Below, one piece after another: positions 25,952 to 31,296 of a DNA stretch of 64,000 bases (position 1 is its first letter; each line of letters opens with the position of its first letter). Source of the DNA: Leucobacter salsicius M1-8. GTDB taxonomy: Bacteria > Actinomycetota > Actinomycetes > Actinomycetales > Microbacteriaceae. The notes beneath the pieces are model-generated. The model worked only from the letters and a program-made list of their open reading frames with translations, was not told the origin of the DNA and ran no database searches. Both the position numbers and the translations under genes were made by a program. The DNA lies in the NCBI RefSeq assembly GCF_000350525.1, contig NZ_AOCN01000022.1:248001-312000 (forward strand), given 5' to 3'.

Positions 25952-26905
25952 GTGACCCCAGGCATCGCGAGCACCGCGACTGCCGCGACCACAGACGCGC
26001 CAGCGACCCCCACGCTGTGGGCGGTCGTCGGCGCGACCGGCACGGGTAAGTCTGCGCTGTCCCTCGACCTCGCCGAGCGCCTCGCCGGGCAGGGCCGCAC
26101 GGCCGAGATCGTCAATGCCGATGCGATGCAGTTTTATCGCGGCATGGATATCGGCACTGCGAAGCTGCCCGAGGGGGAGCGGCGCGGCATCGCGCACCAC
26201 CTGTTCGACGCCCTCGACCCCACGGAGGAGGCGACTGTCGCGTGGTACCAGCCACGCGCCCGCGGCGTGATCGACGAGATCCACGCGCGCGGCGCCGACG
26301 CGATTCTAGTGGGCGGATCCGGACTCTACGTCTCGAGCGTGATCTACGACTTTCAGTTCCCTCCCCGGGACGAGGTGCTGCGCGCGCGCCTCGAAGCCGA
26401 CGACGCCGAGCACGGCACTGCGTCGCTGCTGGCGCGCCTCGCTGAGCTGTCGCCCGAGACTGCGGCGGCAGTGGACGCAAAAAACCCGCGCCGCGTCGTG
26501 CGCGCGCTCGAGGTCGCACTACTGGGCGGCGACGCGCGTGTCACGCTTCCCAGCGAGCCCGAGCTGTGGCGCACCAACTCCCGTCTCGTCAGCGTCGAGT
26601 GCGAGCGCGGGACCCTTGTCGAACGGCTCGACCGCCGCGTCGATCATATGTGGGCTGATGGCCTGGTCGACGAGGTGCGCGACCTGATTCCGCGTGGCAT
26701 TGAACGGGGAGTCACCGCAAGCCGTGCCATCGGGTATGCCCAGGCACTCGGTCAGCTCGAGGGGCGGCTCACCGAATTCGAGGCGATTGCCGAGACGCAG
26801 GCGCTCACGCGACGGTACGCGCGGCGACAGGTGGCCTGGTTCAAGCGGTATCCGGGGATTCAGCACGTCGCAGGCCCCGATATCGACGCCGTTTTACCCG
26901 CATAG
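25952..26905 (+). CDS. miaA: tRNA dimethylallyltransferase
   Basis: 317 residues, GTG start. Transfers the dimethylallyl group to N6 of A37 in tRNAs reading codons beginning with U. P-loop GATGTGKSA near residue 27, the [15 protein letters not shown] motif, and the RRVVRALE tRNA-binding motif are intact. It forms a unit with miaB and is followed by dapF, the usual actinobacterial order. Confidence 0.95.
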
Positions 26906-26928
26906 CTGTTCCCCATAATCGTGCCCAA

Positions 26929-26934
26929 TACACT
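26929..26934 (+). promoter_or_regulatory. -10 element of leaderless promoter for the dapF-like gene
   Basis: TACACT, 6 nt, then ATG at 26941. No ribosome-binding site. Confidence 0.55.
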
Positions 26935-26940
26935 GGGACG

Positions 26941-27816
26941 ATGACGACGCTGCAATTCGCCAAGGGCCAGGGCACAGGCAACGACTTTGTGCTGTTCACC
27001 GACCCTGACGGCACGATCGAACTCACTCGCGATCGCGTGCGCGCGCTCTGCGACCGCCACACGGGGATCGGTGCGGACGGCGTGATCCGTGCCGTGCGCA
27101 GCCGGGCGATCCCTGAGGGGGCCGCGGTGCTCGAGGAAGAACCCGAGGCTGAGTGGTTCTTCGACTTCTGGCACGCCGACGGCACCCGCGGCGACATCTG
27201 CGGCAACGGCATTCGGGTCTTCGCGCACTACCTCATCGCTGAGGGGCTTGTGGCCCCGGAGCGACGCGATACGCTCCCGATCGCCACCCGGCTCGGGGTG
27301 CGTGACGTGCTCGCGGGCGCCTCGGGGTACACCGTCGACATGGGCCGCTGGCGGCTCGGCGGTGAGAAGCTTGTCAGCGCGCGCGGTCTGTACGTGCCTC
27401 GCCCAGGCCTCGCGATCGATCTCGGCGGCATGCACGTCGTCACGGCCCTCGCGCACGCGGGCGAACTCGAAGCGCTTGACCTGAACCATGAACCCACGCT
27501 TAACACCGATGACACCGCGAGCTTCGAATTCGTCGTGCCCGATGACACGCTCGTTAAGAACGGCGTCGCGCGCATCTCCATGCGCGTCCACGAGGAGGGA
27601 CGGGGGGAGAACCGCTCCAGCGCGGCCGGAGCCGCGGCGGCGGCCCTTGCCTTTCGGCACTGGGGTGGCGACGACATGCCCCATCACTGGAGCGTCGAGG
27701 TTCCCGGCGGTCGGCTGGCGGTGCGCATGTTCCCCACGCAGGAGGGCGAGCATGTCTCGCTGAGCGGGCCCGCCGAGCTCGTCTACACGGGCGAGATCGA
27801 ACTGCCCGAGGCCTAG
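26941..27816 (+). CDS. dapF: Diaminopimelate epimerase-like protein with degenerate active site
   Basis: 291 residues and DapF along its whole length, in the place where dapF always lies (after miaA, before the methyltransferase and hflX). Normal DapF interconverts LL- and meso-diaminopimelate with two cysteines. Here the first cysteine is kept (ICGNGIR, C87), but the second is serine (S227, in NRSSAAG instead of the usual RSCGTG). Other family residues have also changed: the substrate-binding Asn of the NSDGS/NADGS motif is H78, GNPH is GGMH (residues 162-165), and the Arg of ERGVGE is E219 (EEGRGE). The overall fold residues, including GTGNDFVLF and SVEVPGGRL, are preserved. Epimerase activity is therefore doubtful; the protein may have another role or substrate. 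Confidence 0.85.
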   Translation: MTTLQFAKGQGTGNDFVLFTDPDGTIELTRDRVRALCDRHTGIGADGVIRAVRSRAIPEGAAVLEEEPEAEWFFDFWHADGTRGDICGNGIRVFAHYLIAEGLVAPERRDTLPIATRLGVRDVLAGASGYTVDMGRWRLGGEKLVSARGLYVPRPGLAIDLGGMHVVTALAHAGELEALDLNHEPTLNTDDTASFEFVVPDDTLVKNGVARISMRVHEEGRGENRSSAAGAAAAALAFRHWGGDDMPHHWSVEVPGGRLAVRMFPTQEGEHVSLSGPAELVYTGEIELPEA

Positions 27817-27888: not shown

Positions 27889-28929
27889 CTACTCGCAGCC
27901 CACGCCGTCACCGTCACGGTCGAGGTGCCTGCCGTATCCCGGCTGCCCCGCATACACCGGAGCACCGCCCGCCTCGCGGGCCGCCGTGCAGCTCTTGTAG
28001 TAAGCCTCGGGCGTGGGGGTGGGCACCGCCGGCCGCGGCTGTGCCGGGGCCGGTTCTGAATCGGGAGTGGTCGCGGTGAGCTGATCCGGATCCGGCGCAT
28101 TCTCAGCTACGAGCCCGCCCGCGAGCGTGCTCGCGACCGCGGGCTCCTCGGGACAGGTCGTGAGGACGCGCTGCATCGCATCGCGCTCGGCTGCCGTCAC
28201 CCACAGCTGGTACGCGGCCTTGGTCGAGACCTGCCGGGCGACGTACTCGCACCGGAATGCACGATTCTTGGGCAGCCAGCTCGCGGCATCGCTGTCGCTC
28301 TTCGCGCTGTTGGCGGGGCCGTCCGACGCGAACAGGTTGATAGGGTCGTTTGCGAGGGCGACGCGGGCGTCCTGCGAGAGCTGTTGCGCCCCCTTCTGCC
28401 AGGCGTCCGAGAGCGCCACGACGTGATCGATTTGCACGAGCGTTGACGTCTTATCGCCGCGCACGAAGTCGATGGTCTTGCCCGTGTACTTGTCGGCGAG
28501 GGTCCCCGAGAGCACCTTGCAGGGGCCCGAGAGCGTGAGATTCGTGAGGTCGCGCTGCAGCATGTCGTTGCGGGTGTCGCAGCCGTTGCGGTCGACGTCC
28601 TTCCACGGGGACCCAAACTGGGCTTTGCGGTCGTAGCCGGTCTTGGGGGCGCGACCCTTTATCGGCAGTGTCGCGAGCAGCTCGAGGGCCGACCCTGCGG
28701 CGGGGTCGGCAACGTCGGCGGCGTCAGTGAGGTCTTCGAATTCGAGGGGGTCCGCTACGTCGGTATCGGCGTCTGAGTCGTCCGGTTCAGCGGGCACGTG
28801 CTCCTCGACGACGCTCGCGGCGGGGTCATCGACGGCGAGCCCGGCGGGATCCGCGCACCCGGCGAGTGTGAGGGCGAGCGCAGCGAAGAGAGCGGCGGAG
28901 GCGCGACCGCGCCGCCCCGCCGTGAACAC
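27889..28929 (-). CDS. Secreted HNH-type nuclease lipoprotein with Excalibur domain
   Basis: 346 residues from GTG at 28929. A lipoprotein signal (hydrophobic run ending LAGCAD) is followed by an acidic linker, an HNH/DUF1524 domain (DVDRNGCDTRND and VQIDHVVALSDAW near residue 168, then NLFASDGPANSAKSDS) and a C-terminal Excalibur calcium-binding motif (DRDGDGVGCE). Such proteins are thought to be extracellular nucleases tethered to the cell surface. The frame stays open far upstream, but that part is antisense to the methyltransferase frame; the chosen start lies 5 nt after the methyltransferase stop, so both form one minus-strand unit. It carries one iterated palindrome in a Pro-rich linker. 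Confidence 0.82.
   Translation of the reverse strand: MFTAGRRGRASAALFAALALTLAGCADPAGLAVDDPAASVVEEHVPAEPDDSDADTDVADPLEFEDLTDAADVADPAAGSALELLATLPIKGRAPKTGYDRKAQFGSPWKDVDRNGCDTRNDMLQRDLTNLTLSGPCKVLSGTLADKYTGKTIDFVRGDKTSTLVQIDHVVALSDAWQKGAQQLSQDARVALANDPINLFASDGPANSAKSDSDAASWLPKNRAFRCEYVARQVSTKAAYQLWVTAAERDAMQRVLTTCPEEPAVASTLAGGLVAENAPDPDQLTATTPDSEPAPAQPRPAVPTPTPEAYYKSCTAAREAGGAPVYAGQPGYGRHLDRDGDGVGCE
28083..28092. repeat. Iterated palindrome GATCCGGATC
   Basis: Exact copy in the linker before the Excalibur domain of the lipoprotein, encoding Asp-Pro-Asp on the minus strand. Confidence 0.7.
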
Positions 28930-28934
28930 GCGGC

Positions 28935-29615
28935 TCAAGCCTCGGAGTCCTCGGAACCCGCGGCCGCCTCCGCACGCAGCACGTGGAAGCCCTTGGAACG
29001 GGTCGGACGCGAGACCTCGAGCGAGGGGAACTCGGCCGCGATCCAGCGCTGCAGCGAGTCGGCACCCAGGTGCTTCGCCACAACGAGGCTTGCGACGCCA
29101 CCCGGGGCGAGCCGGGGCAGCCACTGCTGCAGGATCTCGTGCAGTGCCTCCTTGCCGACGCGAATCGGGGGGTTGGAACGAATCTCGGCGAACTGCAGGT
29201 CGGCCGGCACTTCCTCGGGCGCGCACACGCGCACGTTTGTGAGTCCCAGGCGATCCGCGTTCGCGCGGGTCAGCTCTCGCGAGCGCTCGTTGACGTCGAT
29301 GGCCCACACCTCGCGCTCGGGGTGGTTGAGGGCCGCGGCGAGCGCGATGGGGCCCCAGCCGCATCCGATGTCGAGCATCGGAGCGGCAGTTGGGCCCTGA
29401 TCCGGATCAGAATCAGTATCGAGCTCGGTGTCGTGAGCAGCTTCGAGACCTGAATCGAGGTGCGCGAGCAGGATCTCGGTGCCACGGTCGAGGTGCTCGG
29501 GGCTGAAGACGCCACCGGCGGTCTGCACCGTGCGGGGGGCCCCGGCCAACACAACCTCGATCTCGCGGGGTCGGTAGTCGCCGGAGGGGGAAGCTGAGAA
29601 GTAATGCTCGGTCAC
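28935..29615 (-). CDS. Class I SAM-dependent methyltransferase (RsmC-like)
   Basis: 226 residues from GTG at 29615. Motif I DIGCGWGP lies near residue 84, the acidic AIDVNERS follows, and SNPPIRVGK near residue 146 is the catalytic NPP motif of N-methyltransferases acting on exocyclic amino groups, as in RsmC/RlmG (16S/23S rRNA guanine N2). Homologues are found next to hflX in actinobacteria. A longer start at 29648 is possible; I prefer 29615 because homologues begin with TEHYF. An acidic insert (TDSDPDQGP) carries an iterated palindrome. It is divergent from hflX. Confidence 0.82.
   Translation of the reverse strand: MTEHYFSASPSGDYRPREIEVVLAGAPRTVQTAGGVFSPEHLDRGTEILLAHLDSGLEAAHDTELDTDSDPDQGPTAAPMLDIGCGWGPIALAAALNHPEREVWAIDVNERSRELTRANADRLGLTNVRVCAPEEVPADLQFAEIRSNPPIRVGKEALHEILQQWLPRLAPGGVASLVVAKHLGADSLQRWIAAEFPSLEVSRPTRSKGFHVLRAEAAAGSEDSEA
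29399..29408. repeat. Iterated palindrome GATCCGGATC
   Basis: Exact copy (extended to TGATCCGGATCA) in the acidic insert just before motif I of the methyltransferase. Confidence 0.7.
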
Positions 29616-29709: not shown

Positions 29710-31296
29710 ATGACTAACGACACTGCAGTAGGCCACGAGCCGAACGAGTCCGCACCAGACGAGTCCGCACGCGACATCGACGCGCGTGACGGCGGAGCGC
29801 TGGGCGGGGATGCCCTCTCACGTATTCTGCGCCAGGAAGCTGGCTCGGCAAATGTGATTCGCGACCTTTCGAGCGCCCAGGCGCTCGGCGACGACGCACA
29901 CGATGACGTGCATGAAGCGGTCGACACGATCCGCATGGAGCGCGAAGACCGCGCATCGCTCAAGCGCGTTGCCGGGCTCTCAACCGAGCTCGAAGACGTT
30001 ACCGAGGTCGAGTACCGACAGCTGCGCATTGAGAATGTCGTGCTGATTGGCGTGTACTCGGGCAATGGACGCGCAGGCCAGGAGGACGCCGAGAACTCGC
30101 TGCGCGAGCTCGCCGCACTCGCCGAGACCGCGGGTGCCGTCGTGCTCGACGGGCTGTTGCAGCGCCGCGCGTTCCCCGACCCCGCCACCTACTTTGGCAA
30201 AGGCAAGGCGCAGGAGCTCAAGGAGCTCGTGGCCGCGCTCGGCGCCGACACGGTGATCGTGGACACCGAGCTGCGGCCGGGCCAGCGCCGCGCGCTTGAG
30301 GATGTCGTGCAGGTCAAGGTGATCGACCGCACCGCCGTGATTCTCGATATCTTCAGCCAGCATGCGAAGAGCCGTGAGGGCAAGGCCCAGGTCGAGCTCG
30401 CGCAGCTGCAGTACCTGCTGCCGCGCTTGCGCGGTTGGGGCGAGTCGATGTCGCGCCAGGCCGGTGGCCAGGTGGGCTCCGACGGCGCCGGCATGGGCTC
30501 ACGCGGCCCCGGCGAGACGAAGATGGAGCTCGACCGACGCAAGATTCACAATCGCATGGCGAAGCTGCGCAAGGAAATCGCGGGCATGGCCCCGGCCCGA
30601 GAGGCCAAGCGTGCCAACCGCAAGCGTGGCGAGGTGCCTTCGGTCGCAATCGCCGGATACACGAACGCCGGCAAGTCGAGTCTCGTGAACAAGCTGATCG
30701 ACGCGCAGGAGCTCGTGCAGAACGAGCTGTTCGCGACCCTCGACACGGCGATCCGTCACGCAGAGACTGCTGACGGCCGCACGTTTACCTACGCCGACAC
30801 GGTCGGGTTTGTGCGCAACCTGCCGCACCAGCTCGTCGAAGCGTTCCGTTCGACGTTTGAGGAGGTCGGCGAGGCCGACGTCATTCTGCATGTCGTCGAC
30901 GGGGCTCACCCTGACCCTGCCGCCCAGCTGCGCACCGTGCGCGAGGTCATCGCAGAGGTGAACGCTCAGTCGATCCCCGAGGTCGTCGTGTTCAACAAGT
31001 CTGATCTGCTCGACGACTCGCAGCGACTCGTGCTGCACGGGCTCGCCCCCGATGCCGTGTTCGTTTCGGCGGTCACGGGTGACGGGCTCGACGAGCTTAA
31101 GAAGCGCGTGGACGCGGCGCTGCCGACGCCGGATCAGGAAGTCACAGTTGTGGTGCCCTACGACCGCGGCGGGCTGGTCGCCGAGATGCACGAGCGTAAC
31201 CGCGTGGTGTCGACCGAATACGTCGAGGAGGGCACCAAGGTGCACGCCTTCGTGTCGGCCGAGATGCTCGCGAAGCTCGAGGGCTTCCGCGTATAA
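29710..31296 (+). CDS. hflX: Ribosome-associated GTPase HflX
   Basis: 528 residues. HflX splits and rescues stalled or stress-inactivated 70S ribosomes. The N-terminal HflX domain contains YFGKGKAQELKE and the Gly-rich GQVGSDGAGMGSRGPGETK segment (cited in part), then the GTPase domain with G1 GYTNAGKSS near residue 316, DTVGFVRNLP and NKSD. An acidic, likely disordered N-terminal extension of about 100 residues precedes the family core, as common in actinobacteria. Followed by a strong hairpin. Confidence 0.95.
   Translation: MTNDTAVGHEPNESAPDESARDIDARDGGALGGDALSRILRQEAGSANVIRDLSSAQALGDDAHDDVHEAVDTIRMEREDRASLKRVAGLSTELEDVTEVEYRQLRIENVVLIGVYSGNGRAGQEDAENSLRELAALAETAGAVVLDGLLQRRAFPDPATYFGKGKAQELKELVAALGADTVIVDTELRPGQRRALEDVVQVKVIDRTAVILDIFSQHAKSREGKAQVELAQLQYLLPRLRGWGESMSRQAGGQVGSDGAGMGSRGPGETKMELDRRKIHNRMAKLRKEIAGMAPAREAKRANRKRGEVPSVAIAGYTNAGKSSLVNKLIDAQELVQNELFATLDTAIRHAETADGRTFTYADTVGFVRNLPHQLVEAFRSTFEEVGEADVILHVVDGAHPDPAAQLRTVREVIAEVNAQSIPEVVVFNKSDLLDDSQRLVLHGLAPDAVFVSAVTGDGLDELKKRVDAALPTPDQEVTVVVPYDRGGLVAEMHERNRVVSTEYVEEGTKVHAFVSAEMLAKLEGFRV

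Follow-up and report, generated by a model that had tools for sequence, protein, structure and literature searches.

A DapF orthologue of Leucobacter salsicius with a degenerate active site and a scaffold that appears to be retained

The window analysed here is a 64,000-nucleotide stretch of the Leucobacter salsicius M1-8 genome (G000). It contains a dapF homologue flanked upstream by a gene which we take to be miaA and downstream by one that is presumably hflX-like (Table 1). The product matches Pfam PF01678 with 84.3 bits (cut-off 34.7) and narrowly passes the NCBIfam DapF model TIGR00652 with 123.7 bits (cut-off 114.65). It shares an orthologous scaffold with the DapF proteins of C. glutamicum (CgDapF; 5H2G, 5H2Y and 5M47) and M. 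tuberculosis (MtDapF; 3FVE), to which it aligns over nearly the full length at 133–135 bits. In the genome of 3.19 Mb no other gene matched PF01678: both partial matches fall inside the window gene, and a second dapF elsewhere in the genome was rejected on the basis of this search. Between dapF and the hflX-like gene lies a 491-residue reading frame (27889–29364, minus strand), whose residues 227–491 have a 63% identical counterpart at the locus of a relative, G096; its second half presumably encodes a secreted nuclease with a C-terminal Ca-binding motif. A 297-residue frame antisense to dapF (26860–27753, minus strand) is probably a shadow ORF of the high-GC coding sequence.

Table 1. Features of the dapF locus in window coordinates
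Feature	Position	Strand	Basis or remark
miaA (presumed), upstream neighbour of dapF	25952..26905	+	name assigned from sequence
dapF orthologue, active site predicted dead	26941..27816	+	intact 291-aa ORF, ATG start; TIGR00652
Codon 78, His replacing substrate-ligand Asn (CgDapF N74)	27172..27174	+	alignment; available text of PMC5296763
Codon 87, first catalytic Cys, kept	27199..27201	+	alignment
Residues 119–138, distal stretch retained in dead orthologues	27295..27354	+	picked after viewing the alignment
Codon 163, Gly replacing substrate-ligand Asn (CgDapF N159)	27427..27429	+	alignment; available text of PMC5296763
Codon 194, Ser replacing substrate-ligand Asn (CgDapF N194)	27520..27522	+	alignment; available text of PMC5296763
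Residues 217–230, degenerate second active-site block (R219E, T224N, C227S, G228A, T229A)	27589..27630	+	alignment
Residues 256–276, distal stretch (VRMFPTxEGEHVS) retained in dead orthologues	27706..27768	+	picked after viewing the alignment
hflX-like gene (presumed), downstream flank of dapF	29710..31296	+	name assigned from sequence

According to the available text of PMC5296763, alanine substitution of N15, N74, C83, N85, N159, N194, E212, R213, C221 or T223 almost wholly abolishes CgDapF activity. At these ten essential positions the window protein has N, H, C, N, G, S, E, E, S and A. Four residues are kept (N14, C87, N89 and E218) and, unlike in CgDapF, six are lost (N78H, N163G, N194S, R219E, C227S and T229A), the second catalytic cysteine among them. 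C87 is embedded in an intact ICGNGIR motif, and the degenerate block at residues 217–230 reads HEEGRGENRSSAAG. The protein therefore falls short of the two catalytic cysteines of a functional DapF, as C227 is replaced by Ser. An earlier note on this DNA had placed the reading frame and the residues C87, H78, G163-M164, E219, S227, A228 and A229 correctly, and its claim that the second cysteine and several substrate ligands are gone was borne out by alignment to the CgDapF residues; the change of Asn-194 to Ser is an additional loss that it overlooked. A sequencing error or chimaera was rejected, given that six separate essential codons differ, the reading frame is open and the neighbouring genes are syntenic with those of G096.

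The losses fall unevenly on the two halves of the site. In CgDapF the side chains of N74, N159, N194 and R213 bind the distal carboxylate of DAP (PMC5296763, available text). With T223 they make up a DAP-binding set that reads H, G, S, E and A in the window protein. With all four distal-carboxylate ligands changed, the half-site for substrate recognition appears destroyed. In the catalytic half C87, N89 and E218 are still present, and C227 and T229 are missing. Taken together, the loss of the cysteine, the ligands and T229 predicts that DAP epimerase activity should be absent. The only named sequence relatives found were three Brevibacterium records at 42–43%, and a structure prediction using an alignment of these three alone gave a mean pLDDT of 46.5, too poor for use.

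The lysine-pathway genes elsewhere in the genome were searched with profiles. A full-length meso-DAP dehydrogenase gene, ddh, is present (G000:C19:188878-189846; 450.2 bits, cut-off 180.6); hmmscan assigns its product to the same family, and the best solved relative by sequence is a meso-diaminopimelate D-dehydrogenase chain (464 bits). Four separate matches exceed the cut-off of the LysA (DAP decarboxylase) model, all outside the window (L065, L066, L067 and L068). The search of the succinylase branch covered dapD and dapE; dapD gave no match and dapE none above the cut-off, the best dapE score being 70.3 bits where 304.2 are required. With ddh present and dapD and dapE not found, meso-DAP synthesis need not pass through LL-DAP, and gene content places the genome in the dehydrogenase (Ddh) variant of the lysine pathway. 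The gene set supports one option raised in the earlier note, bypass by a meso-DAP dehydrogenase. As judged from the dapD and dapE search, the window epimerase seems to have neither substrate supply nor need. C. glutamicum, which runs the dehydrogenase and succinylase routes side by side (PMC8396482, available text), shares ddh and lysA with G000 but differs in that dapD and dapE are gone in G000 and DapF looks dead. Within the family sample described below, ddh was found in 21/299 genomes, and the Ddh proteins of G000 and G096 are sisters (Ddh locus L061:1462-2475). Its rarity, together with the high similarity to solved meso-DAP dehydrogenases, suggests a horizontal gain of ddh.

It is hard to reconcile these data with a DAP epimerase that still works with an altered site, and we regard this as very improbable. 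The curated TIGR00652 cut-off is passed, if barely, but each of the six changed residues nearly abolishes CgDapF when replaced by Ala (PMC5296763, available text), dapD was not found and dapE not above the cut-off (dapL would be another LL-DAP source), and Ddh makes the epimerase dispensable.

Across the 54 genomes of the genus, dapF was matched in 50, ddh above its cut-off in 17, dapE above its cut-off in 42 and dapD in 42 (41 above the cut-off). Residues were compared in 54 dapF rows, 49 from the genus (the window included) and five from other genera, after the frame-split gene of G310 was dropped. All ten essential residues are present in 52 of the 53 other rows. The exception, G096 (R219M), encodes a DapF 76% identical to that of the window, with GNQH where GNPH is expected, in a genome that has ddh, dapD and dapE. 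G096 is the sister of G000 in a MurE tree with support of 100/100; the tree holds 51/54 genomes (G336, G337 and G339 were left out), with G329 as a long-branch outlier. Seven genomes that carry ddh but lack dapD (G301, G302, G311, G314, G315, G325 and G334; L104–L110) have no dapE above the cut-off and keep all ten residues, indicating that bypass does not force catalytic loss. Tested jointly, dapF of G301, G302, G314, G315 and G325 is under strong constraint (omega 0.025). The intact DapF of these seven genomes may receive its substrate by some other route or act on an alternative one such as 2,4-diaminobutyrate. No dapF match was obtained in G331 and G332 (99–100% complete) or in G333 (74%). 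The near-complete G331 and G332 show that outright loss of the gene does occur; low-completeness genomes cannot prove absence (G333, 74%; G340, 80%; G308, 93% in 190 contigs). G308 (L053, L192) shows a canonical dapF, no dapD and neither dapE nor ddh above the cut-off, and may reflect an assembly gap or lysine auxotrophy.

A wider sample of 299 genomes of the family, G000 included, gave dapF matches in 291, ddh in 21 and dapD in 284. Inspection of weak dapF matches revealed nine further dead orthologues in four other genera: G051 and G121 (g51), G161, G211 and G293 (g20), G005, G202 and G247 (g6), and G131 (g67). They have lost 7–9 of the ten residues defined from the available CgDapF text and keep long reading frames, preceded in all nine cases by miaB and miaA. 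No dapD was found in any of these nine genomes. ddh is present in G051, G121, G161, G211 and G293 and was not found in G005, G202, G247 and G131, whose genomes are small (1.3–1.7 Mb) and which may depend on outside lysine. In G051 and G121 the first catalytic cysteine is Ser in both alignments made; the second block reads TSSGSRLESL in one and TSSGSRLECV in the other, so that a Cys may occupy position 227.

The residues of 116 genomes were inspected, 49 of the 54 in the genus and 67 others of the family sample, chosen non-randomly to take in dapF matches at both the strong and the weak end, the ddh carriers with listed places and 12 others; no claim that dead dapF is absent elsewhere follows from this set. 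The site is canonical in 83/83 genomes with dapD and without ddh. Where both genes are present it is canonical in 12/15, and one essential residue is changed in the other three. Besides G096 these are G152 (T at the N159 position) and G064 (A at the R213 position), which came to light when eight ddh carriers with dapD were added to the comparison. Of the 13 genomes carrying ddh but not dapD, seven are canonical and six dead, and with neither gene, one of five is canonical and four are dead. The first two classes differ with Fisher p = 0.003, uncorrected for shared ancestry or non-random genome choice. Gaps were ignored in this tally, which concerns the partial dapF of G251 and the one position among the ten that is a gap in G131, and G310, with dapF in two frames, was excluded from every residue count. 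Among other genomes lacking dapD, G038, G213 and G272 match dapF but fall outside the inspected set, and G015 and G231 gave no dapF match. None of the 116 genomes inspected showed a relative with the Ser/Ala block of the window protein. The survey outlines a graded series from presence of ddh through loss of a single ligand and loss of dapD and dapE to a dead site.

Whether the gene is simply decaying was judged from the distribution of changes within it. Eighty-three alignment columns hold one residue in at least 97% of 85 intact rows, among them G096 and three from Brevibacterium; 35 columns lie within three residues of an essential position and are termed near, and the remaining 48 far, gaps being scored as lost. 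In the window protein 11/35 near columns are changed against 1/48 far columns (p = 2.1e-4). Near columns are also changed more than far ones in all nine other dead proteins, with p < 0.05 in G161, G211, G293, G005, G202 and G247 and non-significantly in G051, G121 and G131. Mere decay after the bypass would hit both classes alike, and the contrast in the window protein therefore argues against it; the earlier note's statement that the changes are not random decay holds in this within-gene comparison.

Codon models, run with a purpose-written script on 2–7 sequences each, gave a more mixed picture. On the terminal branch of the window dapF, omega is 0.159 against 0.020 in the rest of the tree (LRT 12.1), indicating relaxation, and omega = 1 is not rejected (LRT 2.86). 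For miaA on the same branch omega is 0.011, not relaxed, with the tip length at the bound. The changed site is common to G051 and G121, which dates the loss to before their split; since then their dapF has evolved with omega 0.19, omega = 1 being rejected (LRT 38.1), and their miaA with 0.081. The dapF genes of G161, G211 and G293 give omega 0.095 (LRT against 1 of 200), a value that assumes a common ancestor already dead and that comes with saturated synonymous change. As several tip lengths are at the bound, the G051/G121 pair alone is free of saturation. A plain relic of the Ddh bypass, decaying and not yet interrupted by a stop or frameshift, would account for the eightfold raised omega on the G000 branch, not significantly below 1, and for the relatives G331 and G332 without a dapF match. 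We nevertheless consider a relic unlikely in view of the nearly untouched far columns, the long reading frames of the nine dead orthologues in four other genera and the purifying selection in G051/G121 after the loss. The window gene has lost catalytic residues, has an intact reading frame and is orthologous by locus, as expected of a pseudoenzyme; selection on the scaffold is seen in the near/far contrast of the window gene and in the omega of G051/G121, the omega of the window gene itself giving an LRT of 2.86. The pseudo-enzyme option of the earlier note is supported by this combination of a destroyed site and an otherwise conserved scaffold.

The dead proteins retain particular stretches. 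Block 217–228 is the best conserved 12-residue block in intact proteins (0.94) and the least conserved in dead ones (0.26), in which block 265–276 is kept best, with 0.77 agreement over five lineages. With the window gene omitted, agreement over 259–276 is 0.80, compared with 0.49 in the other distal conserved columns and 0.30 in near-site columns. The best 18-residue windows in the dead proteins start at 121 and 256, a post hoc result, and the permutation p of 5e-5 for retention of 259–276 is likewise post hoc because stretches 119–138 and 256–276 were picked after viewing the alignment. Residues 265–275 of the window protein (PTQEGEHVSLS) have no close counterpart in CgDapF or MtDapF. The domain crossovers of CgDapF are printed, in the available text, as Asp131/Met132 and Thr267/Gly268. 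The former aligns to 133/134 of the window protein, the latter to 278/279 by number and to 275/276 by residue type (a Thr-Gly pair). Judged by this alignment, the two retained stretches would lie at or beside the two crossovers, and they could serve in folding, in domain closure or as a partner surface.

We think it likely that the Ddh bypass freed the active site and that the DapF scaffold was retained for a catalysis-independent role. The window protein would be the vertically inherited DapF of its lineage turned into a pseudoenzyme, its catalytic centre lost after a different enzyme had made the step dispensable. Ddh, whose gene is present and whose flux is presumed, would make meso-DAP from tetrahydrodipicolinate in one step, so that lysine synthesis could do without the succinylase branch and its closing epimerisation. 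The loss of dapD and dapE, seen in the genome, would have come next; the sister G096, with ddh, dapD and dapE, already lacks the recognition Arg of DapF. The second catalytic cysteine, the four distal-carboxylate ligands and T229, all missing from the sequence, would have followed, and the scaffold, chiefly 119–138 and 256–276, would have been kept, as the selection patterns suggest, for a role free of catalysis.

That role is probably one as a binding partner. The best precedent is E. coli DapF, which stimulates the RNA pyrophosphohydrolase RppH in a role that needs neither catalytic cysteine. In the available texts, the C73A/C217A protein still binds and stimulates RppH (PMC4227774), and a variant defective in dimerisation and activity still stimulates it (PMC7144940). 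The likeness of the window protein is an analogy only: those texts describe the stimulation for E. coli, and the window DapF is known here from its sequence.

The fold may instead have been turned to other chemistry, with C87, N14, N89 and E218 acting on a different substrate, for example in a one-base isomerisation or elimination. The window protein has an intact N-terminal half-site (N14, C87, N89 and CGNG), G131 also keeps N14, C87 and N89, and two DapF-like enzymes act on other substrates: PddB, a 2,4-diaminobutyrate racemase in which changing either Cys almost abolishes activity (PMC8225329, available text), and HisR, a histidine racemase from an organism without the DAP pathway, in which Cys to Ser greatly lowers activity (PMC11602996, available text). 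Both thus depend on two cysteines, of which the window protein keeps one. Moreover, C87 is kept only in G131 among the nine other dead orthologues, which have not converged on any shared new pattern at their ten site positions. The new substrate proposed in the earlier note is less likely, because the protein has lost the four distal-carboxylate side chains together with one cysteine of the acid/base pair, and we judge a new enzyme improbable.

For the family as a whole, we see an even chance that DapF has a conserved catalysis-free function on the crossover surface (119–138 and 256–276), which becomes visible once bypass or loss of the lysine pathway frees the activity, with pseudoenzymes having arisen about five times and been kept by selection. 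In most descriptions a pseudoenzyme is a paralogue that accompanies an active copy. In the present case the only orthologue of an enzyme of core biosynthesis has, in several lineages, been stripped of catalytic residues, yet the gene is kept. It amounts to a natural separation-of-function experiment that predicts a second role of DapF in actinobacteria and names residues for it. Annotation as diaminopimelate epimerase, for which the curated model is passed, would mistakenly ascribe that enzyme to the genome. No relevant account of DapF pseudoenzymes, or of dapF loss within the family, turned up in the literature searched, which covers few subscription papers.

The earlier note remarked that many Microbacteriaceae have peptidoglycan with diaminobutyrate, lysine or ornithine in place of meso-DAP, and a hint on this point comes from MurE. 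MurE enzymes that add meso-DAP read DNPR at the motif compared here. G331 and G332 (L157, L158), without a dapF match, are the only two with DYNPR instead of DYHPR, and no such match occurs in G329. The motif reads DYHPR in 48/51 rows of the genus, which hints, at the level of sequence, at another diamino acid in its cell wall.
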